Part shown: piece after piece, positions 41,583 to 57,575 of the stretch | Position numbering within the stretch: the first letter of the stretch is position 1 | Layout: each line of letters opens with the position of its first letter | From: Streptomyces hyaluromycini | GTDB taxonomy: Bacteria > Actinomycetota > Actinomycetes > Streptomycetales > Streptomycetaceae | Assembly (NCBI RefSeq): GCF_002217755.1 | Contig: NZ_BCFL01000018.1 | Span: 682,001-746,000, forward strand | DNA: 64,000 bases | Direction of reading: 5' to 3' | Notes under the pieces: model-generated | Seen by the model: the letters and a program-made list of their open reading frames with translations, nothing else | What the model was told of the DNA's origin: nothing | The model's database searches: none | Program-made: the position numbers and the translations under genes

Positions 41583-43652
41583 GTGTTGAACAGCAGTAAG
41601 CACACGGAACTGGCGAACCACGCGTGGTCGGTCGCCGACCTCCTGCGCGGCGACTACAAGCAGTCCGACTACGGCAAGGTGATCCTGCCGTTCACGGTGC
41701 TGCGGCGCCTGGAGTGCGTCCTGGCTCCGACCAAGGACAAGGTCCTGGAGGTCGCCGCCCGCTACGAGAACCAGGACATCAACCCCGACCGCTTCCTGCG
41801 CAAGGCGTCCGGCCACAGCTTCTACAACACCAGCACGTACACCCTGAAGGCCATCACGGGCGACGCCTCACACGCGGCGAAGTACCTCAACGAGTACTAC
41901 GGCGCCTTCTCCCCCAACGCGCGGGAGGTCCTGGAGCGGTACGACTTCGCCCAGCAGATCAAGCGACTGGCCGCGGCGGACCTGCTGTACCAGGTGGTCG
42001 GGCGGTTCGCCGACCTCGACCTTCGGCCGGTGAAGAGGGACGAAGACGGCGAACTCGTGCTCGGCGAGAACGGCAAGCCGATCGAGATCGTCACCAACCA
42101 TCAGATGGGCTACATCTTCGAGGAACTGATCCGGCGCTTCGCCGAGCAGTCCAACGAGACGGCCGGTGAGCACTTCACACCGCGGGAAGTCATCAGGCTG
42201 ATGGTCAACCTGCTCGTCGCACCGGACACCGACGCGCTGGCCCTGCCGGGCACCGTCCGCACGGTCATGGACCCGGCCTGCGGCACCGGCGGCATGCTCA
42301 GCGCGGCCGAGGAGCACATCACCGCCCACAACCGGGACGCCACGGTCAAGGTCTTCGGCCAGGAACTCAACCCCGAGTCCTGGGCCATCTGCCGGTCGGA
42401 CATGATGATCAAGGGCCAGGATCCGGAGAACATCAAGTTCGGCAACTCCTTCAGCGACGACGGCCACGCCGACGCCACCTTCGACTACCTGCTGGCCAAC
42501 CCGCCGTTCGGCGTGGAGTGGAAGAAGGTCAAGGACGCGGTCGAGGACGAACACGAACGCCTCGGTGACAGCGGGCGGTTCGGGGCCGGCCTGCCGCGCA
42601 TCAACGACGGGTCGCTGCTCTTCCTCCAGCACATGATCTCGAAGATGAAGCCGGTGGACGCGTCGGGGGCGGGCGGCAGCCGCATCGCGATCGTCTTCAA
42701 CGGCTCCCCGCTGTTCACGGGGGCGGCGGAGTCGGGTGAGTCCAGGATCCGGCAGTGGATCCTGGAGAACGACTGGCTGGAGGGCATCGTCGCCCTGCCC
42801 GACCAGCTCTTCTACAACACCGGTATCTCCACGTACTTCTGGGTGCTCAGCAACCGCAAGGCCAGGGACCGGCGCGGCAAGGTCGTCCTGCTGGACGCGC
42901 GCGACTACTGGCGCAAGATGCGAAAGTCGCTCGGCGACAAGCGCAAGGAACTGGGCGAGCAGCACATCTCCGAGATCACACGGCTCTACACGGAGGCGCT
43001 GGCGGTCGTCGACGCGGCGAAGAAGGGCGGCGGCCACGACCTGGCCGACCGCGCCGGGAAGGTCAAGGTCTTCCGCAACGAGGACTTCGGCTACCACCGG
43101 ATCACCGTCGAACGGCCGCTGAAGCTCCGCTTCGAGGTGACGGAGGAGACGCTGACGGCCCTCACCGCGTCCAAGCCGATCACACGGGCCACGGACGCGG
43201 AGGCGTTCGCGGAGGCGTTGCGCCCACTGGTCGGCAAGTCCTGGACGACGAAGTCCGACGCGTGGATCGACCTCAAGGACGCGGTCGTCGCGGCCGGCCG
43301 GTTGTGGCCGACGGGCGCACCGTTCGGCAAGGCGCTGCGGGAGGTGGTCGGCGTGCGGGACCCGGGGGGTGAGGTCCAGTACATCAAGGGCGAGAAGGAA
43401 CCCGATCCGGAGCTGCGGGACTACGAGAACGTTCCGTTGGAGGAGGACGTGGAGGAGTACTTGCGGCGGGAGGTGCTGCCACATGTTCCGGATGCGTGGA
43501 TCGACCACAGCAAGACGAAGATCGGGTACGAGATCCCGTTCACGCGGCATTTCTATGTGTACAAGCCGCCGCGGCCGTTGGGGGAGATCGACGCGGAGCT
43601 GAAGGCTCTGGAGGGCGAGATTCAGGCGCTGCTTGGGGAGGTGACGGGATGA
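41583..43652 (+). CDS. hsdM: Type I restriction-modification system, DNA methylase subunit
   Basis: A 689-residue HsdM. The N-terminal helical HsdM_N domain is seen in ELANHAWSVADLLRGDYKQSDYGKVILPFTVLRRLECVL. SAM motif I is DPACGTGGMLSAAEEH (about 230) and the catalytic NPPFGVEW lies at about 306. The usual GEHFTPREVIRLMV precedes. It methylates adenine within the sequence chosen by HsdS and also forms part of the restriction complex with HsdR. GTG 41583 has GGAAGGA upstream. It is the first gene of hsdM-hsdS-AAA-DUF4276-hsdR; its stop overlaps the hsdS start in ATGA. Confidence 0.96.
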   Translation: MLNSSKHTELANHAWSVADLLRGDYKQSDYGKVILPFTVLRRLECVLAPTKDKVLEVAARYENQDINPDRFLRKASGHSFYNTSTYTLKAITGDASHAAKYLNEYYGAFSPNAREVLERYDFAQQIKRLAAADLLYQVVGRFADLDLRPVKRDEDGELVLGENGKPIEIVTNHQMGYIFEELIRRFAEQSNETAGEHFTPREVIRLMVNLLVAPDTDALALPGTVRTVMDPACGTGGMLSAAEEHITAHNRDATVKVFGQELNPESWAICRSDMMIKGQDPENIKFGNSFSDDGHADATFDYLLANPPFGVEWKKVKDAVEDEHERLGDSGRFGAGLPRINDGSLLFLQHMISKMKPVDASGAGGSRIAIVFNGSPLFTGAAESGESRIRQWILENDWLEGIVALPDQLFYNTGISTYFWVLSNRKARDRRGKVVLLDARDYWRKMRKSLGDKRKELGEQHISEITRLYTEALAVVDAAKKGGGHDLADRAGKVKVFRNEDFGYHRITVERPLKLRFEVTEETLTALTASKPITRATDAEAFAEALRPLVGKSWTTKSDAWIDLKDAVVAAGRLWPTGAPFGKALREVVGVRDPGGEVQYIKGEKEPDPELRDYENVPLEEDVEEYLRREVLPHVPDAWIDHSKTKIGYEIPFTRHFYVYKPPRPLGEIDAELKALEGEIQALLGEVTG

Positions 43653-44818
43653 CTGATCGTCTCCCATTGAGGCGCATTGCCCGCCTGGCGTATGGGGACG
43701 CGCTTTCTGCGGACATTCGCGTCGAAGGCAAGTACGCAGTCGTGGGATCAGGTGGCACGTCTGGAACTCACAACTCCCGTAATTTCCGGGCTCCGGGAAT
43801 CGTCATCGGCCGAAAGGGTAGCTACGGCTCCATTCACTGGGTTCCCGGCGGCGGATTCGCCATCGACACCGCGTATTTCATTGATGAGACATGCACATCG
43901 GCGGATCTCCGCTGGCTCTATTACGCACTCCAAGCAGTGGATCTACGTGGAGTGTCGCAAGACGTTGGCGTTCCTGGGCTATCCAGGGAGTCGGCCTACC
44001 AGGTACTGCTACCTGCAGCACCGTCACTGGAGGAGCAGCACCGCATCGCCGACTTCCTCGACGCCGAAACCTCCCGCATCGATGAAGTCACCAATGCGAT
44101 GCAGTCAGAGATTGGTTTGCTTATCCAGCGCCGGGTGCAGACCATCGATCGGATTTGGGGGCACGTCAACAGCGTCCCTCTCATGAGGCTCGGATATGCG
44201 ACCAGCCTCGTGACAAGCGGATCACGCGGATGGAGTGACTATGTATCCGATTCGGGCGCACTCTTCTTCCGCAGCGCCAATCTTCGACCTGACAGAATCC
44301 AACCAAAGCTGACAAATTCAGTCTATGTTCAGATTCCCTCCGATTCTGCAACAGAGGCCACCAGGGCACGCATCACTGACGGCGACGTCCTGGTGGGTAT
44401 CACAGGCGCAAATTGCGGCTGGGTCGCACTCGCGAATGGTGCGGTCGCTGGCGGATACGTAAGCCAGCATGTCTGTTTGGTACGCCCGGACAGGCACCGA
44501 ATCAGCAGCAAGTGGCTTGCATACCTCATCGCTTCGCGATCAGTGCAGGACAGACTTATGGGCAGTCAGTACGGCGGGACCAAGACCCAATTGTCGCTTC
44601 CAGACATTCGCGATCTACGCGTACCAGTCATTCCTATTGCGGATCAGGAGAAGCTGAGCGGCGAGATCACACTGCAAGTCAACCGGATCGACAGCCTGCG
44701 CAGTCTAAGATTCCGTCAGCTCGACCTCCTCGCCGAACGCCGCCAAGCCCTGATCACCGCCGCCGTCACCGGTCAGATCGACGTGTCCACCGCCAGTGGA
44801 CGAGGGATCGAGGAATGA
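43649..44818 (+). CDS. hsdS: Type I restriction-modification system, specificity subunit
   Basis: A 389-residue HsdS with two target-recognition domains. The first ends in LPAAPSLEEQHRIADFLDAETSRIDEVTNAM, the second in VPVIPIADQEKLSGEITLQVNRIDSLRSL; both tails are the conserved helical spacers that bind HsdM. Middle motifs DGDVLVGITGANCG and YGGTKTQLSLPDIR are typical. It dictates the bipartite DNA site. The recognition domains are visibly poorer in G+C than all neighbouring genes, a usual sign of exchange of specificity domains. ATG overlaps the hsdM stop; the AAA gene starts 7 bases after the hsdS stop. Confidence 0.95.
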   Translation: MTDRLPLRRIARLAYGDALSADIRVEGKYAVVGSGGTSGTHNSRNFRAPGIVIGRKGSYGSIHWVPGGGFAIDTAYFIDETCTSADLRWLYYALQAVDLRGVSQDVGVPGLSRESAYQVLLPAAPSLEEQHRIADFLDAETSRIDEVTNAMQSEIGLLIQRRVQTIDRIWGHVNSVPLMRLGYATSLVTSGSRGWSDYVSDSGALFFRSANLRPDRIQPKLTNSVYVQIPSDSATEATRARITDGDVLVGITGANCGWVALANGAVAGGYVSQHVCLVRPDRHRISSKWLAYLIASRSVQDRLMGSQYGGTKTQLSLPDIRDLRVPVIPIADQEKLSGEITLQVNRIDSLRSLRFRQLDLLAERRQALITAAVTGQIDVSTASGRGIEE

Positions 44819-44825
44819 TCGCGCC

Positions 44826-46067
44826 ATGAGTGCCGCCGTGCCCCACCGCCCGTTGCCGTTCATCACCCGTGTCCGGATCGAGAACTACAAATCCATCGCT
44901 CATTGCGACGTGACTCTCGGCCGGTTCACCGTGCTGCTCGGGCTGAACGCCGCAGGTAAGTCGAACTTCCTCGATGCCCTGCGCTTTGTCCGCGACGCGT
45001 TGGCGAACGGCCCGGCCGAGGCCGTGGCGATGCGCGGCGGGTGGGAGGAGGTGCTGCGCCGGGTCCCTGAGCCGGCAATCTCCTGCACGATCGGGCTGGA
45101 GTTTCATCTGCCGACGATCGCCCATGACGGGGAGCCCTGGGTAGGGCGGTACGAGATCACCCTCGCACCGGCGACAGCCACCAGGCGGGGGCGAGACGCG
45201 GGGTCCGGTGTCCGTGTCCAGCGTGAGTTCTGCGAAATGCGTCACCCTGGTGCCAAGGGCGGGACTGACGCCGAGCGATTCCTGGTGCGAGACCGCGCGG
45301 AAACGGGACGTCGTCTGAAGCTGCTGAGGCTTTCACGAATGTCTGGCACAGAGGCGTTCGGTGACCTTCACGAGACTCTCGCGGAGATGTTTTTCTACAG
45401 CCCTGACCTGTCCAGCCTTCGTAAGGCCCGCCCCAACCCCGTGTTCTTCGAAGGCCTGGGCGAAGAAGGCGGCGACCTCGGCCCGGCCTTGGCCGCGCTC
45501 GGGGAGCAGGAGCGTCACCGCGTCTCGCAGTACCTGGGGGCGATCGTGCCCGGAGTCGTGGAGGTCGGTCCCACCGACCCCGCCGCCGACTACATCGCGG
45601 CGCGGATCAGCTTCGCCATCGACGGCGAGAGCGAACCGCACGTCTTCCGGGCCGAGTCCATGTCGGAAGGGACTATCCGAGCGATCGGTCTGCTGACCGC
45701 ACTCTTCCAACCCGCTGCCCGCGAAGGCTGGATCCCACTCATCGCCATCGAGGAGCCCGAGTTGGCGCTGCACCCACTCGCGGCCGGAGCCCTCTACGAC
45801 GCGCTCACGGAAGCAAGTGAGCACGTACAGGTCCTTGCCATCACGCAGAGCGCGGAACTGTTCGACCGTAAGGAGGCCGATCTGTCGGCCATCCGCGTGG
45901 TCGCCGCCGAGCACGGGGTGACAGTGATCGGCGAGGTGGACCCCGTAAGCCGGTCGATCGTCGCCGACGGCCTGGCCACCACGGCCGAACTGCTGCGCTC
46001 CGACCAACTGCGCCCGGTCGTCGAACCCCCAGCCCGACCGGACGAGCAACCGGAGGCTGAGGAGTGA
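44826..46067 (+). CDS. AAA ATPase embedded in type I operon (OLD/AAA_21 type)
   Basis: A 413-residue ABC/OLD-like ATPase. N-terminal FITRVRIENYKSIAHCDVTLGRFTVLLGLNAAGKSNFLDAL holds Walker A (GLNAAGKS, about 42). A signature-like MSEGTIRAIGLLTAL and Walker B WIPLIAIEEPELALHPLAAGAL follow near the end. The usual switch THS is TQS here (VQVLAITQSAEL), so the His is replaced by Gln. Such ATPases pair with TOPRIM-type effectors (for example OLD-Gabija- and PARIS-like systems). The next gene, DUF4276, overlaps it by 4 bases (GTGA), so the two are a unit. ATG 44826 is the best start; the frame is open 10 codons upstream inside hsdS. Confidence 0.9.
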   Translation: MSAAVPHRPLPFITRVRIENYKSIAHCDVTLGRFTVLLGLNAAGKSNFLDALRFVRDALANGPAEAVAMRGGWEEVLRRVPEPAISCTIGLEFHLPTIAHDGEPWVGRYEITLAPATATRRGRDAGSGVRVQREFCEMRHPGAKGGTDAERFLVRDRAETGRRLKLLRLSRMSGTEAFGDLHETLAEMFFYSPDLSSLRKARPNPVFFEGLGEEGGDLGPALAALGEQERHRVSQYLGAIVPGVVEVGPTDPAADYIAARISFAIDGESEPHVFRAESMSEGTIRAIGLLTALFQPAAREGWIPLIAIEEPELALHPLAAGALYDALTEASEHVQVLAITQSAELFDRKEADLSAIRVVAAEHGVTVIGEVDPVSRSIVADGLATTAELLRSDQLRPVVEPPARPDEQPEAEE

Positions 46068-46678
46068 ACCAGCCGAGAGTCACGATCGCCTCCGTCGTCG
46101 AAGGCGAGGGCGAGATCAGCGCGCTGCCCGTCCTCCTCCGGCGGCTGATGTACGAGGCGGAGATCTGGGACGCCGACATCCAGCCGCCCTTCCTGGTCGA
46201 CCGTGGCCGACTCGTCCGGCCAGGCGGCGTGGAAAACGCAGTAGAAGCCCAGGCGCGACGCGTACCCGCCGACCACCCGGGCGGCATTCTGGTCGTGATC
46301 GACGCCGACGACGACTGCCCGGCCAGCCTCGGGCCTGCGCTCCTGGCCAGGGCCGAGGACACCCGCTCGGACCGCCGCACGGCAGTCGTCCTCGCGAACC
46401 GGGAGTTCGAGGCCTGGTTCCTCGCCTCAGCGCCCTCACTCGGCGGCCGGGCGGGGCTAGCCGAAGACCTGGAGGTCCCGGCCGACAGCGAAACACGACG
46501 CGACTGCAAGGGCTGGCTGACCCACCACCGTGAGGACGGGGTGCGGTACCGCCCCCGCGTGGACCAGCCGGCCCTGACCCACGCCATCGACCTCGACCTT
46601 GCCCGCGCCAACTCACCGTCCTTCGACAACTTCTGCCGTGACATCACGTTCCTGATCACCGGAAAGCGGGGGGAATAG
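46064..46678 (+). CDS. DUF4276 protein, TOPRIM-like effector candidate
   Basis: A 204-residue DUF4276 protein. The N-terminal strand-turn SVVEGEGEISALP supplies an acidic motif (Glu 13-17), VVIDADDD (Asp 80-84) supplies the acidic pair, and ANREFEAWFL (about 111-120) is the family's signature, reminiscent of RloB-type proteins. This pattern is consistent with a TOPRIM-like metal-dependent fold. DUF4276 proteins usually accompany AAA ATPases; the ATPase gene just before overlaps by four bases. Likely role: effector released or activated by the ATPase on phage infection (inference). The gene ends 6 bases before hsdR. Confidence 0.85.
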   Translation: MNQPRVTIASVVEGEGEISALPVLLRRLMYEAEIWDADIQPPFLVDRGRLVRPGGVENAVEAQARRVPADHPGGILVVIDADDDCPASLGPALLARAEDTRSDRRTAVVLANREFEAWFLASAPSLGGRAGLAEDLEVPADSETRRDCKGWLTHHREDGVRYRPRVDQPALTHAIDLDLARANSPSFDNFCRDITFLITGKRGE

Positions 46679-46684
46679 CAGCTC

Positions 46685-49600
46685 ATGTCCGTCCACGACG
46701 AAGCAGCCTTCGGAAACGCCATAGTCGCCGCCTTGCTTGAGCGCGGTTGGACTGAGGGAAACAAGCACGACTACCGACCCCAACTCGGCCTGGACACCGC
46801 CCAGCTCACCGAGTTCATCGGCAGGACCCAGGCCGACGACTGGGCCGAACTGATCGCCCTCTACGGCGACGACGCCAACGCCGCCCAGGCCGGGTTCGCC
46901 AAGCGCGTGGACCAGGCGATCGGAACCGACGGCGTCCTGGACGTCCTCCGCAAGGGCGTGAAGGACCACGGCATCCTGATCAGGCTCGCCTACTTCAAGC
47001 CGTCGCTCGTCGCCTCGGACGCCGTCCTGGACGACTACCGGGCGAACCGGCTGACCTTCGTCAAGGAGTTGCAGTACGCGGCGAAGCAGGCGGACAAGGG
47101 CAACGAGTTGGACCTCACCCTTTTCCTCAACGGAATCCCGCTGGCGACCGCCGAGTTGAAGAACGCCCTCACACGGCAGGGGGCGGAGCAGGCCAAGGAG
47201 CAGTACCGACTCAAGCGGGACCCCACCGAGCTGATCTTCGCGCGCCGCGTCATCGCGAACTTCGCCATCGACACCGACGTGGTCTACGTCGCGCCCGAGC
47301 TGCGCGGCAAGCTCACACGGTTCCTGCCGTTCAACACCGGCTCGGAAGGCCCGGGGAAGCCCGGCGGCGCGGGGAATCCGGAGCCCACCGTCCCCGGGAC
47401 GTACGCGACTTCCTACCTCTGGGAGCAGATCTGGGAGCGGGACACCTGGCTCGACCTGATCGAGCGGTTCGTGCACCTCAGCAAGGAGAAGGGCCCGGAC
47501 GGGCGGACGCGGAAGAAGCTGATCTTCCCGCGCTACCACCAGTGGGACATCGTCACGAAGCTCACCGGCCACGCGGCCCGCCACGGCGCCGGTCACAACT
47601 ACCTCGGCATGGCCTCCGCCGGTTCCGGCAAGTCGAACACCATCGGGTGGCTGGCTCATCGCCTGTCGTCGCTGCACACGCCGACCAACCCCGCCGAGAT
47701 CGACCCCGACGCCCTGGCCGATGGCCTCAAGCCCGGTGCACCCGTGTTCGACAAGGTCGTGATCATCACCGACCGCCGCAATCTCGACGCCCAACTCCGC
47801 GAAACCGTCGGCAGTTTCGAGAAGAACGCCGGTCTGGTCGTGAAGATCGACGAGAAGCACGGCGCGAAGTCGGAACAGCTCGCCAAGGCACTGTCCCGCG
47901 AGACCGGGAAGATCATCACGGTCACGCTGCACACTTTCCCCGCCCTCATCGACTACCTGCGCCGCAGTCCGACCGAGATACAGGGCCGCAACTTCGCGAT
48001 CATCGTGGACGAGGCGCACTCCTCCCAGTCCGGCGACGCGGCGACAGCCGTACGCGCGGCACTGCGTGACCTCGGCCTGGACTCCGACTCCGACGACGCC
48101 GGGGCAACCAAGGTGGAAGCAGAGGCGGCCACCACCGACGCCAAGCTCATCCGCAAGGCCACCCAGCGCGGCAAGGCCTCCAACCTGTCCTACTTCGCGT
48201 TCACGGCCACGCCCAAGGCCAAGACCCTCGAACTCTTCGGCACCCTGGACACCGTCAACGGCAAGCCGGCGTACGTCCCCTTCCACACGTACTCGATGCG
48301 CCAGGCCATCGAGGAAGGGTTCATCCTCGACCCCCTGCGTACCTACGTCACGTACGACACGTACTGGAAGCTGGTGAACAAGAACCCGGACGAACGCGAG
48401 GTGGACCCGTCCAAGGCGAATCCGCTGCTCGCCCGGTACGCGCTCACACACGACTCCACGGTAACCCAGCAGGCGCAGGTGATCGTCGAGCACTTCCGCA
48501 CGCACACCGCCGGCCGACTCGGCGGGCGCGCCAAGGCCATGGTGGTGACGGCCTCCCGGCACAGCGCCGTGCAGATGGCCCGCGCGATCAGGAAGTACGT
48601 CGGCGACAACGCTTACGCCGACCCCGGCGTCCTGGTCGCGTTCTCCGGCAGCCTGACGTACGACGGCGAGGAGACGACCGAGCCGAAGGAGAACGGCGGG
48701 CTGGCCGAGTCCGCGCTGCCGAAGGCGTTCGCGTACACGCGCAAGGACGACAAGGCCGTGCGCACCGGCGGGACGGCGACTCAGCGCGAGTACCGCATCC
48801 TGGTCGTCGCCGAGAAGTACCAGACCGGCTTCGACCAGCCGCTGCTCACCACCATGTACGTGAACAAGAAGCTCGCGGGCATCAGCGCCGTCCAGACCCT
48901 CTCCCGGCTGAACCGCACCGCAGACCGCAAGTCGCAGGCGGACCTCGCCGTACTGGACTTCGTCAACGACGCCGAGGACATCAAGGAGTCCTTCCGCCCG
49001 TACTTCGAGGAGGCCAACACCCTTCCCTCCGACCCCAACCTCCTCTACATCGCGCAGAGCCAGGTCATGCAGCCCGACATCCTCGTCGAGGAGGAGATGC
49101 GGGAGTTCGCGGACGCCTATCTGGCAGCCGAGGAGAAGGCGGCGGGCTCGGCCGCCCGCTGGGAGAGGCTCCACGCGGAGCTGTACCGGCAACTCGCCCC
49201 CGCCGTCGGGCGGTTCACCGACCTGCTGGACCGCAGGGACGAGGCGGGCGACCCCGACGAGGAAGCCGCCGAGGCCGCCGAGAAGTTCCGCGCGGATCTC
49301 AACGACTACGTACGGAAGTACGGCTTCCTCTCGCAGATCGTGCCCTACCGCGACGCCGACCTCGAATGCCTCTACCTGTACGGCCGCCACCTGCTCAACC
49401 GCCTGCCGCGACGCGGTGACGGCGGTGTCGACATCGGGGACGTCGACCTCAGTCATCTGCGCATCCAGAAGACCGGCGAGCACGACCTCACCCTGACCTC
49501 CGAGGGAGCGGCGGAGCTGCGCGGCTTCGGCGAGGGCGCGGGCGGCGCCAAGGAGCAGGAGAAGTCGCTCCTGTCAGAGCTGATCGAGAAGTTCAACGAC

Positions 49601-49888
49601 AAGTTCGGCACCGACTTCAGCGATCAGGACGTGATCACGCCGTTCTCCGAGGCGAAGGCGGACCCGAAGGTCCGCGCCGCCGCGGTCAACGACGAGGAGA
49701 ACTTCGGACTCGTCTTCGACGAGGTCTTCGAGGACAAGATGGCCGAACACATCGACACCATCGCCGACATGGGACGCCAGTACTTCAGCCACGACGACAG
49801 CTTCAAGCAGTCGCTCAACCAGAGTGCGCGCCGGGCGGCCTGGCGGATGATCCGCCGGGAGGAGAACATCGACGACGAGGCGGCCTGA
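46685..49888 (+). CDS. hsdR: Type I restriction enzyme, R subunit
   Basis: A 1,067-residue HsdR. The N-terminal nuclease (HSDR_N) is visible in LDLTLFLNGIPLATAELKNALT, with the ExK of a PD-(D/E)xK site at about 156-158. The helicase motor follows: Walker A MASAGSGKSNTIGWL (about 312), DEAH in IIVDEAHSSQSG (about 442), motif III YFAFTATPKAKTLELFG, and later motifs KYQTGFDQPLL and LSRLNRTADRKSQ. It translocates DNA and cuts unmethylated targets together with HsdM and HsdS. ATG 46685 follows the DUF4276 stop closely, so all five genes form one transcript. The C terminus is an acidic helical region that binds the methylase core. Confidence 0.95.
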   Translation: MSVHDEAAFGNAIVAALLERGWTEGNKHDYRPQLGLDTAQLTEFIGRTQADDWAELIALYGDDANAAQAGFAKRVDQAIGTDGVLDVLRKGVKDHGILIRLAYFKPSLVASDAVLDDYRANRLTFVKELQYAAKQADKGNELDLTLFLNGIPLATAELKNALTRQGAEQAKEQYRLKRDPTELIFARRVIANFAIDTDVVYVAPELRGKLTRFLPFNTGSEGPGKPGGAGNPEPTVPGTYATSYLWEQIWERDTWLDLIERFVHLSKEKGPDGRTRKKLIFPRYHQWDIVTKLTGHAARHGAGHNYLGMASAGSGKSNTIGWLAHRLSSLHTPTNPAEIDPDALADGLKPGAPVFDKVVIITDRRNLDAQLRETVGSFEKNAGLVVKIDEKHGAKSEQLAKALSRETGKIITVTLHTFPALIDYLRRSPTEIQGRNFAIIVDEAHSSQSGDAATAVRAALRDLGLDSDSDDAGATKVEAEAATTDAKLIRKATQRGKASNLSYFAFTATPKAKTLELFGTLDTVNGKPAYVPFHTYSMRQAIEEGFILDPLRTYVTYDTYWKLVNKNPDEREVDPSKANPLLARYALTHDSTVTQQAQVIVEHFRTHTAGRLGGRAKAMVVTASRHSAVQMARAIRKYVGDNAYADPGVLVAFSGSLTYDGEETTEPKENGGLAESALPKAFAYTRKDDKAVRTGGTATQREYRILVVAEKYQTGFDQPLLTTMYVNKKLAGISAVQTLSRLNRTADRKSQADLAVLDFVNDAEDIKESFRPYFEEANTLPSDPNLLYIAQSQVMQPDILVEEEMREFADAYLAAEEKAAGSAARWERLHAELYRQLAPAVGRFTDLLDRRDEAGDPDEEAAEAAEKFRADLNDYVRKYGFLSQIVPYRDADLECLYLYGRHLLNRLPRRGDGGVDIGDVDLSHLRIQKTGEHDLTLTSEGAAELRGFGEGAGGAKEQEKSLLSELIEKFNDKFGTDFSDQDVITPFSEAKADPKVRAAAVNDEENFGLVFDEVFEDKMAEHIDTIADMGRQYFSHDDSFKQSLNQSARRAAWRMIRREENIDDEAA

Positions 49889-49933: not shown

Positions 49934-50347
49934 TCAGCCTCCCTGGCGGAACGAGAGCCCCGCGATCACGGACGTTCCGCGCATGGGGCGGGGCCGGACG
50001 GTCCAGGCAGTGGCGAGGCCTTCGACGAGGATCAGGCCCCGGCCGCTCTCGGAGTCGGCGTCCGGGTGCGCCAGAGCGGGCTTGCCGGCACCCGGGTCGG
50101 AGACGGCCAGCCAGTAGTGGCCGTCGGCCGGCCACAGAACGAGTTCGATGAGGTCCTCGTCCTCCCGGTACGCGCCGTGCCGAATGGCGTTGGTGACCAG
50201 TTCAGAGGTCAACAGGCCCAGGTCGTCGCCAAGGTGAGGACGGAGAGCGTCCGGCAGCACTTCGACGACGGCGTGCCGGGCCCGCCGTACGGAGGCGGGC
50301 TGGGCAGGGAAGCGCCAGTGAGCGGGTACGAGGGGGATCTCGGGCAT
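49934..50347 (-). CDS. HATPase_c_2 ATP-binding protein (RsbW-like anti-sigma type)
   Basis: A 137-residue ATP-binding protein of the RsbW/SpoIIAB-like class. N box LTSELVTNAIRHGA, G1 box VSDPGAGKPA and G2 box SGRGLILVEGLA are clear. Such small HATPase proteins are abundant in Streptomyces and commonly lie divergent from XRE-DUF397 pairs of the WhiJ type; some act as anti-sigma factors by serine phosphorylation. ATG 50347 (MPEIPLVPAHWRF) has GGAG 11 bases upstream; the open frame extends 35 codons further. Divergent from the XRE gene at 50590, leaving about 240 bases for control. Converges on hsdR. Confidence 0.9.
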   Translation of the reverse strand: MPEIPLVPAHWRFPAQPASVRRARHAVVEVLPDALRPHLGDDLGLLTSELVTNAIRHGAYREDEDLIELVLWPADGHYWLAVSDPGAGKPALAHPDADSESGRGLILVEGLATAWTVRPRPMRGTSVIAGLSFRQGG

Positions 50348-50589
50348 GGCGAACTCCACGACTCTGTGAGGGGTTTGGGGTCGCCGGTGGCCTACCGCCC
50401 TGGTCGCGGACACACCCGTCCCAGGGCGGACGGGCATGCTCACGCGGTGCACTTCCGGCGTTGCGGTGTGTAGCGTGCACGGTACTCACAGTAGGGCAAC
50501 GGGGGTACATGTGCTACCAAGTCCCGAAGGTCCGTTGGAACGAACTTCGCTTCGCGGCAAACTGAGCCGCACGCGACGAGAGGGAACCG

Positions 50590-51441
50590 ATGCCGCCGAG
50601 GAGCAATCCGACCGCACGCCAGCAGCGTCTGGGCGCAGAGCTTCGCAAGCTACGGGAAGGGGCGGGACTGTCCACCGAACAGGCCGCCATACTGCTGGAC
50701 ACGAAACGAACCGTGATCACCAGCACCGAGGCGGGACGTCACGGCGTCAGCCCGGAGCGTGTCCGGCGCATTGCCTTCCGGTACGAGTGCACGGACCAGG
50801 CTCTGGTAGACGCGCTGGTCTCCATGTGCGGCGACCGCACGACCGGCTGGTGGGAGGAGTATCGCGACCTCCTGCCCGCGACATTCCTGGACATCGCCGA
50901 GTTGGAGTGGCACGCCCGAGGCTTGCGTGTCAGCACGATGACACACATGCCGGGCCAGCTGCAGACCGAGGCATACGCACACGCCCTCTTCCAAGCTGCC
51001 ATCCCGCCGCTGCCCACCGAGGAGTTCGAGGCCAGGGTCGCCCACCGCGTGCAAAGGCACCAGGCCATCGACCGGCCAGGGGCTCCGGACTACGTGCTGA
51101 TCATCCATGAGGCCGCCCTCCGGATCGAAGCAGGTGGACGCGCGGTGCTACGAGACCAGCTTGGTCACCTCATGACAGCCGCAGACCGCGACAACGTCAC
51201 AATCCAGGCCATCCCCTTCTCCGCAGGGGCGTTCCCCGGTTCAGGCCAGTCGATCCTGTACGCCCTCGGCCAGATGCCTCCACTCGACACCGTGCAACTG
51301 GACCGCGCCACGGCAGGAGAATTCCTTTATTCAGGTGCCCACTTGTGCAAGTACCGTCTGCAACTCAACGAGATGCAGAGGATCGCGCTCAAGCCTGAGG
51401 AGACCCTCGATCTCATGCACGCCATTTCCCAGAGCCTTTAG
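50590..51441 (+). CDS. XRE-family regulator with DUF5753 (WhiJ-like)
   Basis: A 283-residue regulator. The helix-turn-helix lies at about 18-60 (LRKLREGAGLSTEQAAILLDTKRTVITSTEAGRHGVSPERVRRI). Residues about 95-275 are DUF5753, with STMTHMPGQLQTEAYAHAL, RVQRHQAI, YVLIIHEAALR and the late GAHLCKYRLQLNEMQ. WhiJ-like proteins of this layout control development or secondary metabolism together with a DUF397 partner. ATG 50590 follows GAGAGGGAACCG. The DUF397 gene begins 11 bases after the stop. Why such a set sits in a defence island is not known; it may control the flanking genes. Confidence 0.92.
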   Translation: MPPRSNPTARQQRLGAELRKLREGAGLSTEQAAILLDTKRTVITSTEAGRHGVSPERVRRIAFRYECTDQALVDALVSMCGDRTTGWWEEYRDLLPATFLDIAELEWHARGLRVSTMTHMPGQLQTEAYAHALFQAAIPPLPTEEFEARVAHRVQRHQAIDRPGAPDYVLIIHEAALRIEAGGRAVLRDQLGHLMTAADRDNVTIQAIPFSAGAFPGSGQSILYALGQMPPLDTVQLDRATAGEFLYSGAHLCKYRLQLNEMQRIALKPEETLDLMHAISQSL

Positions 51442-51452
51442 GAGAGTTGGTC

Positions 51453-51644
51453 ATGCCTGCTATCAGCTGGGAAGCACCCTTCTGCCAGGACGCGAGCAAC
51501 TGCTTCCGCTTCGGTACCGATGCCGAAGGCAACGCCTACATAGCCGTCAACGGCCAGGAGGATCACCACCTCACTGACTCCCTCGAAGCCCTGCGCACCC
51601 TCATCACCGACATCAAGGCGGGCAAGGCCGACCACCTGCTGTAG
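51453..51644 (+). CDS. DUF397 protein, WhiJ partner
   Basis: A 63-residue DUF397 protein (family that includes BldB-like small proteins). Family pattern: ISWEAPFCQDASNCFRF and EALRTLITDIKAGKADHLL. ATG 51453 has AGGAGA 7 bases upstream; it follows the XRE gene by 11 bases, as is standard for whiJ-type pairs. It probably binds or modulates its cognate regulator. Confidence 0.92.
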   Translation: MPAISWEAPFCQDASNCFRFGTDAEGNAYIAVNGQEDHHLTDSLEALRTLITDIKAGKADHLL

Positions 51645-51734: not shown

Positions 51735-53351
51735 GTGTCGCAGGCAAGGAGAATCGGCGAGCAGGGCCGCTACGAGCTGATCGAGGAGATCGAGTCCGGT
51801 GGCATGGGCACGGTCTGGCGCGGCTACGACGCCGTTCTCGACCGGGAGATCGCGGTCAAGCTCATCCGGCCCGACGTCGTCGCGTCGCCCGCGCAGGCGC
51901 AGGAGTTCGCCCGCCGCTTCGAACGTGAGGCGCGCGTCACCGCTCGGATTGGGCATCACGGGGTGCCGCAGGTGTTCGACGCGGTGCTGGACGAGGCGTC
52001 GTACGACCGGCTGTACCTGGTGATGGAGTACGTGCGCGGGATCTCCCTGCGCAGGCTGCTGGCAGGCGCGGAGGACGAAGCGGCGGCCCGGCTCCCGGTG
52101 AGCTGGGCCGCGTCGATCGCCGCGCAGATCTGCACCGTCCTGTCGTACGCGCACGCCATCCCGGTCGTGCACCGCGACCTGAAGCCGGACAACGTCCTGA
52201 TCGCCGCTGACGGCACGGTCAAGGTGCTGGACTTCGGCATCGCGAAGCTGTTGCGTACGGATGTCACCCGGCTCACGGCCACCGGCAGCCGGATCGGTAC
52301 CAGCCGTTACATGCCGCCCGAGCAGATCGACGGCGCGCAGATCACCCCGCTGAGCGACCTCTACGCGCTCGGCTGTGTGCTGCACGAACTCCTCGCCGGG
52401 GAGCCGGTGTTCAGCGGCGACAACGAGTACCAGCTTCTGCACCAGCACATGAAGGCGCCGCCGAAGCCGTTGCGCACACTGCGGCCCGAGGCACCGGAGG
52501 ACCTGGAGACGCTGATCCTCGACCTGCTGGCCAAGGTGCCCGAGCAGCGTCCGGCCGACGCGTACGCGGTCTACGAGCGTCTGTCGCCACACCTGCCGCA
52601 ACCGGGCTCGGCGGCTGCCCCCGTGGTCTTCACCGACGGTGATTCCCCCTCCGTCGTTCCCGACCCGACGGTGGTCTACCGGCAGCCGAACGCGCCCCTG
52701 CGGCGGACCACGGCGCCCTCGCCCGCACCCGAGCCGACAGCGCCCGTGCCAGTCCCCGGGCGGGTCGACACCGCGCTCCGGGACGCCATCCGGGACGCCT
52801 ACGCCCGGTCCGCGGACCTCGCCGAAAGCGGACGGTTCGCCCAGGCCGCGGACGTCCTCAAGGCCGTGATCGCCACGGCCGCCACCGCTCTCGGCGAGCA
52901 CAACCCCCGTGTACTCGGCCTGCGGCGGCAGCGCGCGGCGGTCCTCATGGCCGGCGAGGACTTCCGGCGTGCCTTGCCGGAGTTCGACGCGCTGGCCGCC
53001 GTCTACGCCCGTACGGCGGGACCGGCCGACGAAAACACCCTGGAGTGCCGTCGGCACGCCGCCCACTGCCGGGCCAACCTCGGTCAGGCCACGGTCGCCC
53101 TACGGGAGTTCCAGGAGGTCCTGGAGGTCGTGTCCGACGCAGCCGGGGACGCCTCCGAGACCGCTCTCGACCTGCGCCGAAGCATCGGCCTCCTCCTCTT
53201 CTCCGAGGGCCGCCGCACCGAGGCCGAGGGTGTTCTCGACGCCCTCCACGAGGACATGTGCGTACTCCTCGGCGAGGACCACGAGGAGACCCGCGAGATT
53301 GCCGATCTCCTCGCCCGGCTGCGCGGCCCGGAGGGCTCGGGCCCCTACTGA
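51735..53351 (+). CDS. Soluble Ser/Thr protein kinase with repeat-like C terminus
   Basis: A 538-residue Hanks-type kinase. Glycine loop ESGGMGTVWRG, catalytic Lys in EIAVKLIRP, catalytic loop VVHRDLKPDNVLIA, DFG as DFGIAKLL, and activation/P+1 loop GTSRYMPPEQIDG are intact. After a Pro/Ala/Thr-rich linker (about 300-345), residues 350-530 are helical repeats of the tetratricopeptide kind (AESGRFAQAADVLKAVIATAATALGEHNPRVL, then a second and third unit). There is no membrane segment or PASTA domain, so it is cytosolic. Kinases with this layout recur in Streptomyces and in defence islands; a role in defence signalling is inference. GTG 51735 has only a weak ribosome site. Converges on the AIPR gene. 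Confidence 0.92.
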   Translation: MSQARRIGEQGRYELIEEIESGGMGTVWRGYDAVLDREIAVKLIRPDVVASPAQAQEFARRFEREARVTARIGHHGVPQVFDAVLDEASYDRLYLVMEYVRGISLRRLLAGAEDEAAARLPVSWAASIAAQICTVLSYAHAIPVVHRDLKPDNVLIAADGTVKVLDFGIAKLLRTDVTRLTATGSRIGTSRYMPPEQIDGAQITPLSDLYALGCVLHELLAGEPVFSGDNEYQLLHQHMKAPPKPLRTLRPEAPEDLETLILDLLAKVPEQRPADAYAVYERLSPHLPQPGSAAAPVVFTDGDSPSVVPDPTVVYRQPNAPLRRTTAPSPAPEPTAPVPVPGRVDTALRDAIRDAYARSADLAESGRFAQAADVLKAVIATAATALGEHNPRVLGLRRQRAAVLMAGEDFRRALPEFDALAAVYARTAGPADENTLECRRHAAHCRANLGQATVALREFQEVLEVVSDAAGDASETALDLRRSIGLLLFSEGRRTEAEGVLDALHEDMCVLLGEDHEETREIADLLARLRGPEGSGPY

Positions 53352-53367: not shown

Positions 53368-55476
53368 TCACGCTTCGCCTTCTTCTTCCTCTTCGCTGTG
53401 GATGCCCTTCGCCAGGTCCCACAGGCTGCGGCCGTCCGCGAGGAGCCAGCGAGTCGTCCCCTGGTTGGCCACCGGCCGTTCGTCCCATTCGGCATCCGCC
53501 CACATCTTCGACACCAGCCCGGACGGCGAGTACTGCTGCTCGTCGTACGCCCACAGGATCGACTTGGTTCGGTGATTGACCCAGGTCGCCTGACGCCGCC
53601 GTTCGTCCTGGACAAGCCACTCTTCCATGGCGTCGCGCTCGGGCTCGTTCTGAGCCACGTACTGGAGAGGGGCTCCGTCCTTGATCACACGGCGGTCGAC
53701 CAGGAGCGGCACGGTGTTCGGGCGACGCTGCTTGCGCTCCTTCGCGGGAGGTACGGGAACGGCAACGCCCTCGGCCAGGTCGCCGAGGACGTGCTTCGCT
53801 AGCTCTCGGCACGTCTCCGCGGTCTGGAAGGCGGTCCTGATCTGGGGACGTGGCCCGTAACGAGCGACGATCTGGTGCGTCAGCCGACGCACCAGATCCG
53901 GTACGAGGGCAGGGATCTTCTCCAGGACCTCGCTGTCCCAGTCGAAGTCGGGGTCATCAATGCTCGTGGCACCGAGATGCTGGAAGATCAGGTGGGTGAC
54001 GAGAAAACCACCATGCTCCGCGGTTGCCGCCTCGCGGCTGTTCTGCCCACTGCCCAGTTCGTAGACCGCGCTCCGTGCCGCGCGCAGCGTGAGCACGGAC
54101 CGCCACACCTTCTGCGGCGAGGGTTCACGTTTGAACAGCAGGGTGTGGCTGCCCTTGGGGCCCTGCTCCCAGAGGTTCTCCGTGGAACTGGCGGCCCGGG
54201 CGGCCTGTTCCGCATCCGGGTGCAGGCACGCGAGTGCGAGAGCGACTTCGTCCAGTGAGCAACCGGTCTCGGGCGCAGCAACCGGCTCGCCGCGCTTGAT
54301 CACGTACTGCTTGCGCAGCTCGGCGCGCAGGTTGGCCTTGATCGCCTGGTGCACCGGTTCCAGCGCGATGTGATCGCGCTGCTCGATGGCGTTCTGCCGG
54401 TTCGCCGCCTGCGAGACCTGGACGCCGAATTCCCGGTCTTTCTGCGTGTTGATGACCTTGATGCTCAGGGTGGCGTTGGCTGCGGCCTCACCATCGTCGT
54501 GCATCGACCTGGCGACAGCCCGTACCGTCTGAGCGCCGTTGACGATGCTCGCCCCCGTCACGGTGAGAGTGGTCGGCTTGCTCTGCGGTGCCCTGGCGCT
54601 GTCGTTCTCCGCCGTGAGCGAGTCGCAGATCATGGTGATGCCGTTGTTCAGGTGCCAGAACCTGGTGGGATCGGAGGTAAGAGTCAGACCGATCTCCGCA
54701 TTGGTGACGGTGGTCCCGAGTGGGGCCCGGAGATTCTGCTCGAACAGGCCCGTACCGTGCGTCTCGTACCACTCGGCGACGCTCTCGGCGGATACCGTGC
54801 CCTGATAAGCCTTGAGTGGTCCCTTCTGCTCGTACCAGTCGTCAAGGCGTACCTTCAGACAGATCGGCTCCGGCCGAAGATCCGCATGGATCTGGTCATG
54901 GAAGTCCGCGGCGTACAGCACCTCGACGCTCATGCGGGCACCATGCTTGTTGAACTCGGCGAGAGCGTTGTCGAGAACCTCGCGCGCGGGTGGAGAGGGC
55001 TCTACAGTGCCCATCAGCGCGATGACCAGAGTGGCTCGCTCGTTGATGATGAACGGCCGGGCCTCCAAGGCGAGCGCGCCGGCACGCTGGTTGAACTGGT
55101 CGTACAACTCGTTCTCGATACGGTTCAGACCGTCCACCATCGCCTTGGCGGCGCCCACGTCGAAGGTCGCCGTGCCCTTGTCGCTCCACTTCGCCTGGAC
55201 GAGCAGAGCCCGCCCGCTGTCTGGCAGGGGAGCGATGGCGTCCATTCCCTGGTCCGCGATGCCGTCCGTGACGAACCGAGCCGCCTCGGCCACACTGCAC
55301 TTGGCCACGCGTCGTACCGCGAGGGCTGCAAGAGCACGGGAGAGAAAACGCTGTTCGTAGTTGTCGCCTCGGAAGTGGGCGATATCGCTGTCGTCTATCA
55401 CCCCGTCGAATGTCTCGTGCAGCTGCTCGCGCACCTGCGTGACCTGGCGAGGTGTGTCCGCCCCCGAGGTGGCCAT
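53368..55476 (-). CDS. AIPR-family abortive phage resistance protein
   Basis: A 702-residue AIPR-family protein (PF10592). Central hallmark motifs are FWHLNNGITMICDSL, ASIVNGAQTVRAVA and VSQAANRQNAIEQRDHIAL. Near the N terminus is a PD-(D/E)xK-like site: GMDAI (Asp 79) and LLVQAKW (Gln 94, Lys 96). The family is named after the lactococcal AbiA-type resistance context and is frequent in defence islands, usually beside restriction or helicase genes. It probably cuts nucleic acid. ATG 55476 is preferred (GGGAAGG upstream); GTG 55494 is an alternative. It is second in a two-gene unit; the partner (55528-56880) ends 51 bases upstream. Ends with an acidic EEEEEGEA tail. Confidence 0.88.
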   Translation of the reverse strand: MATSGADTPRQVTQVREQLHETFDGVIDDSDIAHFRGDNYEQRFLSRALAALAVRRVAKCSVAEAARFVTDGIADQGMDAIAPLPDSGRALLVQAKWSDKGTATFDVGAAKAMVDGLNRIENELYDQFNQRAGALALEARPFIINERATLVIALMGTVEPSPPAREVLDNALAEFNKHGARMSVEVLYAADFHDQIHADLRPEPICLKVRLDDWYEQKGPLKAYQGTVSAESVAEWYETHGTGLFEQNLRAPLGTTVTNAEIGLTLTSDPTRFWHLNNGITMICDSLTAENDSARAPQSKPTTLTVTGASIVNGAQTVRAVARSMHDDGEAAANATLSIKVINTQKDREFGVQVSQAANRQNAIEQRDHIALEPVHQAIKANLRAELRKQYVIKRGEPVAAPETGCSLDEVALALACLHPDAEQAARAASSTENLWEQGPKGSHTLLFKREPSPQKVWRSVLTLRAARSAVYELGSGQNSREAATAEHGGFLVTHLIFQHLGATSIDDPDFDWDSEVLEKIPALVPDLVRRLTHQIVARYGPRPQIRTAFQTAETCRELAKHVLGDLAEGVAVPVPPAKERKQRRPNTVPLLVDRRVIKDGAPLQYVAQNEPERDAMEEWLVQDERRRQATWVNHRTKSILWAYDEQQYSPSGLVSKMWADAEWDERPVANQGTTRWLLADGRSLWDLAKGIHSEEEEEGEA

Positions 55477-55527
55477 GAATGATTGCCTTCCCACTGATGG
55501 TGTCTTGTTGATGGCCTGGGCCAGCGC

Positions 55528-56880
55528 CTAGATCCCCGAGCCGTTGCCACGCTGCCGGAGGCTGAAGTCCACGACCAGCAAAGCAACGCCAGCCGTGTCG
55601 ATCGAGGCCTCCACCCACTCCAAGGCCACCTGGAAGGGCACGCCGCTCGCGCCGAGCCAACCGTCGCGCACCAGCCCGGCAAAGCTGGTGTGTGCCAGGT
55701 GGCGGGTGAGCACGCGCAAGGAAAGGCCGGGGAGACCGGTCTCCCCTGCGTCCGAGATCGCTCCGGCGAACTGGCCGTAGGGGTAGATCGCACCGGAACT
55801 CGTCCGGTGCAGAGCGGCGGTGAAGGGCTCCGGCTCATGAACGCGGAGGAAGAGAGGGTCGTCCAGCAAGCTGTAATCGTCGGCGCTCCGCCAGTCGCGT
55901 GTCGACAGGCGGTGAGCACGGCTGCGGAACTCGTCCAGGCCGCGCCAGGTGTCAGGGGAGAGGAATCCGTTGGGGCCGGGACGCAGGTAGCGCAGCGTGA
56001 CGAGCGTCCGGGTGTCGAAGTGGTAGTAGTGGGCGTCGAGGGAGCCCTCCCCGCCTTCGACCACCCGCTGATCGGTTATCGACGTGGCTTCCAAGTCATA
56101 ACTATGGCGGCCTTTGCGATTCGAGAACGCGCGGACGACGACCTCTCCGGCACCACGGAACCTCTCCGCCGCCTGCCCACGGACATCGTCGAACATCGGC
56201 TGAATCTCAGTCCCTGTCAGCCCGCTGACAAAGGCTGCCCGGGCGGCTGTCCTGTCCCAGCGACGCACCTCGGAGAAGTCGCTCGGGGTCAGCCCGGCTA
56301 TCTTGGCGAAAAGCAGAAGGGCGTCGCGCTCATCACGCCAGCGGAGCTCTCCCTCGCTCCAGCCTTCGGCTTCGTCGAGCAGCGGCAGCAGCCTCTGGAC
56401 TTCGGCCTCGACATCAGGGGAGATCCGCCTCAGATTGGCGAACACGGTGCCCGCACCGACCGTGACAGGACCGCTTTCCGGTAACGACACGGAGAGCTCG
56501 GCGTCTGACTCGCCGTCGGCGCACCAGAGCCCTGAGACAGGCACCAGGCTTCGAAGGCTTCGTGCACGGGTAACGACGACCTTCCGGTCTCGGTCGGTCT
56601 GTCGAGCAGGGCGCACGATGCCCAGGCCCCAGATCCGCTCCTGTTGCTCCCGGTCGCGTTCATCGCCCTGCTCGTCGGAAGGAACAAGCAGGATCGCGAG
56701 GTGTGACTTGACCTCGGGCCAGTCACGGCAGGACTCGGAGTAGGACCTTTCCTTGGTGCGGCCTTTGGTGAGGTCCTCAGCGAGCAGACGAAGAAAGCCA
56801 CTGTCAGGGCGCAGAATCGCCAGCCGCGGCGATCGCGCCGAAGACGGTAAATCTGCCCGCCTCGGTTGTGCGAATGTCAT
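55528..56880 (-). CDS. Unrecognised protein partnered with AIPR gene
   Basis: A 450-residue protein that I do not recognise. The N-terminal 160 residues look like a beta-rich domain (AILLVPSDEQ, WGLGIVRPARQTDRDRKVVVTRARSLRSLVP). The centre is helical with RDALLLFAKIAGLTPSDFSEVRRWDR, then VVVRAFSNRKGRHSYDLEATSI, a possible metal/nuclease-like patch. The C-terminal half has LFLRVHEPEPFTAALHR and ends in ASIDTAGVALLVVDFSLRQRG. No Walker motif, membrane segment or signal is seen. It is the first gene of a two-gene unit with the AIPR protein and is therefore a strong candidate defence component. ATG 56880 is preceded by GGGGGAG. Downstream spacing is 51 bases. Confidence 0.8.
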   Translation of the reverse strand: MTFAQPRRADLPSSARSPRLAILRPDSGFLRLLAEDLTKGRTKERSYSESCRDWPEVKSHLAILLVPSDEQGDERDREQQERIWGLGIVRPARQTDRDRKVVVTRARSLRSLVPVSGLWCADGESDAELSVSLPESGPVTVGAGTVFANLRRISPDVEAEVQRLLPLLDEAEGWSEGELRWRDERDALLLFAKIAGLTPSDFSEVRRWDRTAARAAFVSGLTGTEIQPMFDDVRGQAAERFRGAGEVVVRAFSNRKGRHSYDLEATSITDQRVVEGGEGSLDAHYYHFDTRTLVTLRYLRPGPNGFLSPDTWRGLDEFRSRAHRLSTRDWRSADDYSLLDDPLFLRVHEPEPFTAALHRTSSGAIYPYGQFAGAISDAGETGLPGLSLRVLTRHLAHTSFAGLVRDGWLGASGVPFQVALEWVEASIDTAGVALLVVDFSLRQRGNGSGI

Positions 56881-57543
56881 CCACTCCCCCGAACCGCCTG
56901 CCACCACGCCGAGCCAGGCTCAGGGGGATGGTAGCGCGCCAGTTCCAGCATCCGGCTTACACGTCCCTAGTTCTCGCCGTTCTCGCCGCCCCGGCCGGCT
57001 CCGTTACGTCTTCGCCCAGTTCCTCGGGGACCGGGCCGACGGACTCACCGTTTGCCTGGCACGCGCGCAGGTCGCCGTCCCCGCGTCAAACGGCCCCCTG
57101 GAATCGATGTTGTCCCGCATGGTCGTCGAGCCGATCGAAGAGACTTCGGCCACCACTCTGCGGTCCTTCGTCGCCAATTGAGGCCCGCACGGGACAGGTG
57201 CGCCATCGACACCATGTCCGGCTCCGCCACCTTCGCCGCACATCCCCCGTTCACCGTACTCACCCCGACCCCGTCCACCTCACCACCCAATGCACCGGAC
57301 TCATCACCTTGATCAAGCCTGACGCGCTCGCGGGCGACATCCCGCGCCACTCTCCACTCGACAACGCGTGTATGGCTGCCCAAATCCCACACAGCCGTTC
57401 TCCAACCTGGCGCACTACGGCTACTTTGATGGCTACGCACGTAGCCGCGCGACCCCGTTTGAACGGGTACGGAACGGGGTTTGATCAGCCCCTCTCTTCC
57501 AACAATAAGGGCTCTGACCAGCAGATTCGCTGGCCAATGGGCC
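56881..57543. other. Gene-poor right end of the island
   Basis: About 660 bases before rnpB hold no convincing gene. A plus-strand stretch near 57000-57180 reads as YVFAQFLGDRADGLTV to SATTLRSFVAN and may be a decayed gene end. The GGCTAC motif is at 57419-57439, a dyad CCGTT-TG-AACGG near 57450, and a hairpin CTGGCC-AATG-GGCCAG at 57531-57546. Confidence 0.6.
57419..57439. repeat. Right copy of GGCTAC double motif
   Basis: GGCTACTTTGATGGCTACGCA, 20 of 21 identical to 37138-37158 and in the same orientation. Lies 104 bases inside the right attachment repeat. It is followed by CGTAGCC, an inverted half-site. Confidence 0.6.
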
Positions 57544-57546
57544 AGA
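57531..57546 (-). terminator. Hairpin just beyond the present rnpB 3' end
   Basis: CTGGCC-AATG-GGCCAG forms a 6-base perfect stem overlapping the end of the attachment repeat. Being island DNA, it may now terminate rnpB in place of the palindrome left at 37031-37048. Confidence 0.5.
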
Positions 57547-57575
57547 GCGGCAGACGAGTCGGGCTGTACGCCGGG
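57544..57575. repeat. Right attachment-site repeat (rnpB 3' end)
   Basis: Identical over 32 bases to 37052-37083. It comprises the last 27 bases of rnpB (including the 3' strand of helix P1) and five bases or so beyond. Integration here keeps rnpB intact. Confidence 0.85.

Follow-up and report, generated by a model that had tools for sequence, protein, structure and literature searches.

Introduction

In restriction enzymes of the MspJI type, an SRA-like reader domain of the PUA superfamily is followed by a PD-QxK nuclease, as set out in passages of two papers (PMC12707154, PMC11037411), and a modification-dependent enzyme of another build, VcaM4I, carries an HNH nuclease, as the title of PMC7897488 indicates. 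We analysed a stretch of 64,000 nucleotides from Streptomyces hyaluromycini (contig NZ_BCFL01000018.1, positions 682,001 to 746,000; the window), in which a gene for an AIPR-family protein (53368..55476, minus strand) lies directly downstream of a gene for a protein of 450 amino acids (aa) (55528..56880, minus strand), here called the partner. We propose, giving the idea somewhat less than an even chance, that AIPR and partner make up one split restriction cassette within a type I, kinase-containing island, the partner being a catalytically dead reader that targets the AIPR nuclease.

Like MspJI and LpnPI (type IV), the partner family is predicted to have a reader-type domain first and a PD-(D/E)XK domain with a D...QxK site second. 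However, we found no Pfam family common to them and the partner, whose predicted reader lies nearer to EVE, ASCH and YTH domains, and the window clade (the window protein and its three close relatives) lacks the Q-x-K and has a second nuclease gene, that of AIPR, directly downstream. The predicted N-terminal fold matched VcaM4I, an EVE-HNH enzyme, with a Z score of 8.6, whereas the nuclease predicted for the partner family is of the PD-(D/E)XK type. GmrSD-type DUF262 enzymes (type IV) enter the comparison through a GmrSD-RAMA protein encoded at the pair's place in another genome (G291) and a GmrSD-like gene near one partner relative (L140), but GmrSD-RAMA has no Pfam family in common with AIPR or partner. 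The AIPR core domain links the window protein to the AIPR/AbiU group, including MzaE of MZA; however, it reached 41.6 bits against the MzaE equivalog cut-off of 1050, and no Pfam match to MutL, Z1 or DUF4420 was found among the 14 window genes scanned. The window kinase resembles MADS mad6, Mokosh MkoA and PD-T4-6 in the scores of its domain against their models and in lying inside a methylase/restriction locus, but these matches mainly cover the common kinase domain, and none of the remaining components of the three systems turned up at the window locus. PglW of Pgl/BREX is presumably a further kinase-containing defence system for comparison. Among titles in the open-licence literature, none was found on AIPR with a kinase or with a PUA-like partner, which is not proof of absence. 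To our knowledge, how AIPR proteins choose their targets is still open.

Results

The AIPR gene and its partner gene

The partner gene starts with an ATG at 56880 and its stop codon ends at 55528; after a spacer of 51 bases (55477..55527, minus strand), the AIPR gene runs from an ATG at 55476 to a stop codon ending at 53368 and encodes 702 aa. This reproduced the leftward two-gene layout described in an earlier note on this DNA, which had overlooked both the type I restriction island and the adjoining kinase gene (51735..53351, plus strand). The kinase gene encodes a Ser/Thr protein kinase of 538 aa with C-terminal TPR repeats (Pkinase, E 5.2e-46; TPR_12, E 1.2e-6) and converges with the AIPR gene, the two stops lying 16 bases apart.

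The AIPR protein matched PF10592 (AIPR) at 109.4 bits against a gathering cut-off of 25 (E 3.8e-31) over its core, residues 245-392, and phrog_1841 (Abi alpha-like) at E 2.1e-53 over residues 19-462; the AbiU model of PADLOC, which was applied to four genes of the window, was matched as well. Asp79, Gln94 and Lys96 stood exactly where the earlier note had placed a nuclease-like site, and they were conserved in 44/44, 43/44 and 44/44 aligned AIPR homologues, respectively. The N-terminus apparently carries an intact PD-(D/E)XK-like D-QxK nuclease site. Gabija pairs GajA, an OLD nuclease, with the UvrD-type GajB. The AIPR protein did not match GajA, and our local UvrD profile gave no match at E <= 1e-5 up to about 7 kb away from the AIPR gene, so the locus was not classed as Gabija.

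Membership and active site of the partner

The partner had been described as matching nothing recognised and as having no ATPase motif. Both observations stand: it matched no family in Pfam, NCBIfam or PHROG and no PDB sequence, and it contains no Walker A motif. Its lone PADLOC match was a weak one to Csx19 (E 0.009) over about 105 residues. Given this weakness, and because a Pfam scan of 14 window genes showed no cas family, a CRISPR identity was dropped. By following weak matches we obtained relatives of full length from other streptomycetes and one further actinobacterial genome, and a scan of GTDB genomes returned 78 loci in Actinomycetota, Acidobacteriota, Planctomycetota, Bacteroidota, Chloroflexota, Pseudomonadota and others; one distant relative came from a phylum sample. 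Twelve of the 78 relatives were left out because their open reading frames were shorter than 400 aa, 46 of the remaining 66 were aligned, and 12 near-copies were omitted from the tree. A profile built from the 46 relatives, excluding the window clade, recovered all four clade members from 5,919 frames at E 1.5e-20 to 2.7e-24 (next best, 0.26) and matched the window partner at E 6e-21. Judged by such profile matches, the partner is a member of a family without a name that is spread over several phyla. Plasmids and phages gave no match to the partner, and viral contigs gave none to the clade profile.

The sole viral-contig match was to a member of the wider family, encoded on an IMG/VR contig (L086:4557-5936) and retaining an intact D-QYK; its neighbour genes presumably resemble phage structural genes, and it may serve in superinfection exclusion or encode a nuclease of the homing type.

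The window partner aligned to profile positions 22-206 and 309-426. Positions of about 207-308 were unmatched in three of the four clade members, and the catalytic D (about 258) and the Q-x-K (about 274-277) fall inside this gap; in the remaining member (L008) a second profile match begins at 263. The E, D, Q, Y and K columns were kept in 46/46 aligned relatives, a conservation that partly reflects how the sequences were picked, because the scan patterns contained parts of the motif. Q-x-K was absent in 4/4 members of the window clade. In the window partner D282 is kept and Q-x-K is replaced by R297-Y-L299, the clade as a whole having R-Y-L or R-Y-V. Since R-x-L/V replaces Q-x-K in every clade member, the nuclease of the window-clade partner is probably dead. 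The distance from D to Q in the partner relatives is 15 residues, the same as in AIPR. A profile-profile comparison of the two nuclease-like domains aligned the D-x14-QxK stretch alone, at a probability of 1.4%, and shared ancestry is not claimed.

Predicted folds of the partner family

The partner is predicted to consist of a PUA-like domain (residues ~15-172), a helical stretch and a PD-(D/E)XK-like domain. The AlphaFold2 model had a mean predicted local distance difference test score (pLDDT) of 77.9 and a predicted template modelling score (pTM) of 0.76. Structures were ranked with VIA-align, which re-orders Foldseek's own list. The N-terminus matched 1zce (Z 9.3; 128 residues, root-mean-square deviation 3.1), VcaM4I (Z 8.6) and THYN1 with 5-methylcytosine DNA (Z 8.4), and further DrmAB chain A (Z 8.2), ASCH (Z 7.9) and YTH domains (Z ~6.4-7.1). 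Of the 50 matches listed for this domain, 42 were named VcaM4I, THYN1, ASCH or YTH, two were DrmAB (domain unchecked) and six were structural-genomics entries. The latter (1zce, 2ar1, 2gbs, 2p5d, 1wmm and 2hd9) we take to be of the EVE type. MspJI and other SRA enzymes were not among the matches listed, which excludes nothing. In a viral structure library Foldseek returned one match at E <= 0.001, an ASCH-domain phage protein (E 2.1e-4), and three domain profiles searched against PDB sequences gave nothing useful.

For the second domain we modelled the C-terminal domain of a relative (L164; pLDDT 76.0, pTM 0.68), which resembled resolvases and restriction enzymes of the PD-(D/E)XK fold, matching Hjc (Z 9.0), RecU (Z 8.9) and I-Ssp6803I (Z 7.7). 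On these models, the wider family would be candidate modification-dependent restriction enzymes in which a PUA-like base reader is fused to a PD-QxK nuclease.

Conservation and evolution of the pair

Partner matches at E <= 0.001 occurred in 7/392 congeneric genomes. Four were strong (G000, which is the window genome, G024, G282 and G044), each with AIPR directly downstream, and the remaining three were distant or doubtful. A second sample of 394 family genomes, partly the same genomes, gave no further close member; its seven other matches were weak, including one in the already-seen G143. By gene calls, both frames were open in the four clade members, in the same order and 26-51 bases apart. 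The four pairs share one orthologous site and so represent a single pairing event, not independent pairings. Conserved pairs in other genomes, which the earlier note had proposed to look for, exist in three further genomes of the genus, at this one site.

The three clade relatives were 94, 94 and 87% identical to the window AIPR and 76, 66 and 60% identical to the window partner. Across six pairs, the ratio of nonsynonymous to synonymous change (omega) ranged over 0.37-0.59 in the partner, 3.4-4.4 times the AIPR values of 0.10-0.13; it was 0.14-0.23 for the kinase (six pairs) and 0.13-0.14 for HsdR (three pairs). Synonymous divergence (dS) of partner and AIPR was equal in one of the six pairs; in the other five the partner had the higher dS, by a factor of 1.2-2.0. 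The rapid change was distributed along the whole partner and confined to no single domain, and the C-terminal RGNGSG was invariant in 4/4 clade members. Both AIPR and partner are under purifying selection, and with the four strong matches all adjoining AIPR the arrangement goes beyond chance. Fast evolution of EVE domains has been reported in defence settings including type IV restriction, according to part of PMC7641849.

Natural variants of the site

In G291 (L117), the kinase is 92% identical to that of the window and both flanks are shared, but the stretch at window 53457..57549 does not align and corresponds to a different segment with one gene, encoding a GmrSD protein with a RAMA domain. 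The alternative occupant of the pair's site is thus a type IV enzyme. Since G291 lacks both AIPR and partner while the kinase stays, the pair appears to be present or absent together, in this single case.

In G282 (L009, G282:C5:306001-325769), DNA corresponding to ~38.8 kb of the window joins that of ~52.4 kb, and the end of the DUF6119 gene meets the C-terminal half of the kinase. The 19.8 kb examined contain neither the type I genes nor the regulators, and the kinase is without its residues 1-228; AIPR and partner are intact. The pair can therefore outlast most of the kinase domain, which supports the pair as a unit and argues against an indispensable kinase. Both variants agree with the earlier view of the pair as a unit, G291 carrying another nuclease in the place of exactly these two genes and G282 keeping both. 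In a third genome, G150 (L118, G150:C437), the kinase match contains a stop, two fragments are what is left of AIPR, and no partner was found.

Neighbours of AIPR and of the kinase

At E <= 0.001, 128/392 genomes of the genus contained AIPR relatives, of which many were partial or distant. We compared the neighbours of 44 AIPR loci, namely the window locus, three close ones and the next 40 by E-value (one of two identical G254 copies omitted); full-length homologues lower in the list fall outside this sample, so the 44 loci lean towards the window's type. Profiles for AIPR, kinase, UvrD, HsdR and methyltransferase were built from Streptomyces proteins, may miss distant forms, and were applied about 7 kb to either side, with 40 arbitrary positions in 20 of the same genomes as controls. 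A kinase of at least 200 bits was found near 24/44 AIPR loci compared with 1/40 controls, and any kinase match at E <= 1e-5 near 30/44 compared with 3/40. HsdR (18/44), methylase (22/44) and UvrD helicase of at least 200 bits (7/44) were each found near 0/40 controls. The partner was near 4/44 AIPR loci and 0/40 controls. In examples such as L049, L051 and L058, a kinase, AIPR and a UvrD helicase follow one another on a single strand. Linkage between AIPR and restriction genes is already known, as parts of PMC2292703 and PMC3506569 state.

A second AIPR-kinase arrangement was seen in L060, L063, L064 and L067, where AIPR is followed on the same strand by a kinase of 455-476 aa with a shorter tail. 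The kinase-TPR subfamily itself recurs in streptomycetes (window 51735-53351; kinase loci L117-L136). Twenty kinase loci were hand-picked, 15 without an adjacent AIPR and 5 with AIPR or a remnant, so that the counts are not rates: a UvrD helicase match of at least 200 bits was present in 10/20 and an HsdR match in 11/20. This kinase subfamily may be central to a separate kinase-helicase system, including at loci that lack AIPR.

Genomic settings of the partner relatives

With the same local profiles, AIPR was found beside 0/78 partner relatives. Near the 78 loci there were 8 with a UvrD helicase, 7 with some kinase (none at 200 bits), 5 with HsdR and 10 with a methylase, and a wider-family tally of neighbours for 99 of 182 listed proteins gave SWI2_SNF2 5 and N6_Mtase 5. 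The counts of this tally are modest, so the wider family is not tied to one system. The proposal that the minimal pair is a distinct system was supported as a two-gene unit in the window clade and was not supported as a general AIPR system; absence of the partner beside AIPR genes, which the earlier note had regarded as damaging, was observed outside that clade and not within it. The other outcome it had regarded as damaging, a known family unrelated to defence, was not what we found: the family has no name, and DISARM, type I or kinase-helicase genes neighbour some of its members.

In one close lineage (L140-L147) a UvrD helicase follows the partner relative, that of L140 being 46% identical over its length to the UvrD beside AIPR in L049. 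DrmB and DrmC lie just upstream of the relative in L140, with same-cluster genes in L141-L147, and were also found beside the relative in L148. The GmrSD-like gene of L140 comes after the relative, two genes away, and has cluster mates in L141, L142, L143 and L147. HsdR-like genes lie directly upstream of the relatives in L161, L169 and L186 (L161 confirmed by a further scan). Along the same strand in L149 and L152, the first subsequent frame to give a strong match encodes a Ser/Thr kinase with HRD and DFG motifs, and in L152 an SNF2-type helicase comes after the kinase. This same-strand run of partner relative, Ser/Thr kinase and SNF2-type (DrmD/BrxH-like) helicase (L152:5683-11510) is a candidate three-gene system.

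Discussion

In the split cassette proposed here, the N-terminal domain of the partner would bind modified or otherwise marked invading DNA. The partner, acting as reader or adaptor, would then bring in or license AIPR through physical contact, and AIPR would cut with its own D79-Q94-K96 nuclease; the neighbouring kinase may tune the cassette by phosphorylation. A role as reader or adaptor is the most likely one for the window-clade partner because it has no nuclease site, and the kinase is probably not indispensable given that G282 lacks most of its catalytic domain. A more extended version, which we consider unlikely, is a kinase-tuned split modification-dependent system in which a reader-nuclease without an active site hands marked phage DNA to AIPR, and in which AIPR, GmrSD-RAMA, UvrD helicases and PUA/PD-QxK proteins serve as interchangeable arms for cutting or processing, grouped with a single Ser/Thr kinase in the neighbourhood of type I restriction and DISARM. 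If true, the kinase-tuned system would give AIPR proteins a targeting mechanism.

Several points weigh against the split cassette. All known copies of the pair belong to a single orthologous site. Neither the partner model nor the L164 model had a Foldseek match in the PDB at E <= 0.001, the partner N-terminus showed no sequence match to PUA-like families (the best profile match to PDB sequences being a designed protein, E 0.011), and Z scores of 7-9 can be attained by unrelated models; with modest Z scores and Foldseek silent in the PDB, the fold call leans on the coherence of the match lists. A PUA domain need not read bases, that of HhiV4I being apparently insensitive to modification according to part of PMC11037411. 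In the tree the window clade grouped together (support 100/100), its branch measuring 3.23 changes per column and lying at the drawing root, and a branch of this length and position does not separate loss of the nuclease site from never having had it. A 2012 paper, in the portion that deals with AIPR (PMC3506569), assigns its N-terminal domain to the HEPN RNases and not to the D-QxK nucleases, which would change the chemistry of the proposed scheme.

Three other explanations bear on the same observations. The partner might act as guard or immunity protein: related to nucleases but itself dead, it would restrain a toxic AIPR and release it on infection, as in toxin-antitoxin-like abortive infection. 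Its position upstream of the effector with a short gap would suit this, AIPR is named for abortive infection (phrog_1841, AbiU model) and called a toxin in part of PMC3506569, and fast evolution suits a guard as well as a reader; but 40/44 AIPR loci have no partner nearby, so most AIPR proteins manage without such an inhibitor, and the partner retains the two-domain plan of a restriction enzyme family. We regard a guard as unlikely. We are more doubtful still that kinase and AIPR form the working system with the partner as an independent passenger defence gene. The kinase is near 24/44 AIPR loci and the partner near four, and the partner relatives occur without AIPR at 78/78 loci, some in other defence settings such as DISARM. 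However, the kinase is present in G291, where both genes are absent, and has lost residues 1-228 in G282, where both are kept, the two open frames keep their order and a spacing of 26-51 bases in 4/4 clade members, and a partner without Q-x-K is unlikely to restrict alone.

The third explanation is that the partner is a decaying restriction gene without present function, which we think very improbable. The missing Q-x-K in 4/4 members and the partner omega of 0.37-0.59 would fit decay, and decayed AIPR remnants do exist in G150; against this, the frame is open in 4/4 members, omega is below 1 in six of six pairs, and RGNGSG is invariant in 4/4.

For one clade, the split cassette offers a testable answer on AIPR targeting, with a dead reader-nuclease as the specificity subunit. 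A split enzyme composed of a reader without a cutting site and a second nuclease would represent a new design among phage-defence enzymes. Beyond the pair, the analysis draws attention to candidate modification-dependent nucleases that form a widespread family without a name (78 loci from a single scan). The Streptomyces kinase, found repeatedly next to different nuclease and helicase genes, may add a layer of control to restriction.

Other features of the window island

The type I restriction-modification set of the island is complete, with HsdR, HsdM and HsdS all present in window 41583-49888. On the plus strand lie a second N-6 DNA methylase (39380..41506), HsdM (41583..43652), an HsdS-like protein of 288 aa (Methylase_S, 43952..44818), an AAA_21 ATPase (44826..46067; PADLOC HEC-01A, E 1.4e-123), a DUF4276 protein (46064..46678) and an HsdR-like subunit of 1067 aa (46685..49888). 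A HATPase_c_2 protein (Pfam) is encoded on the minus strand (49934..50437), followed on the plus strand by an XRE-type regulator with HTH_31 and DUF5753 (Pfam, 50590..51441) and an open reading frame of 63 aa (51453..51644) without a Pfam match. This small frame we take to be DUF397-like. At the edge of the island is a DUF6119 protein of 567 aa (window 37486-39189, E 3.7e-119). Within the type I system, the AAA ATPase (HEC-01A) and DUF4276 genes (44826-46678) separate HsdS from HsdR.

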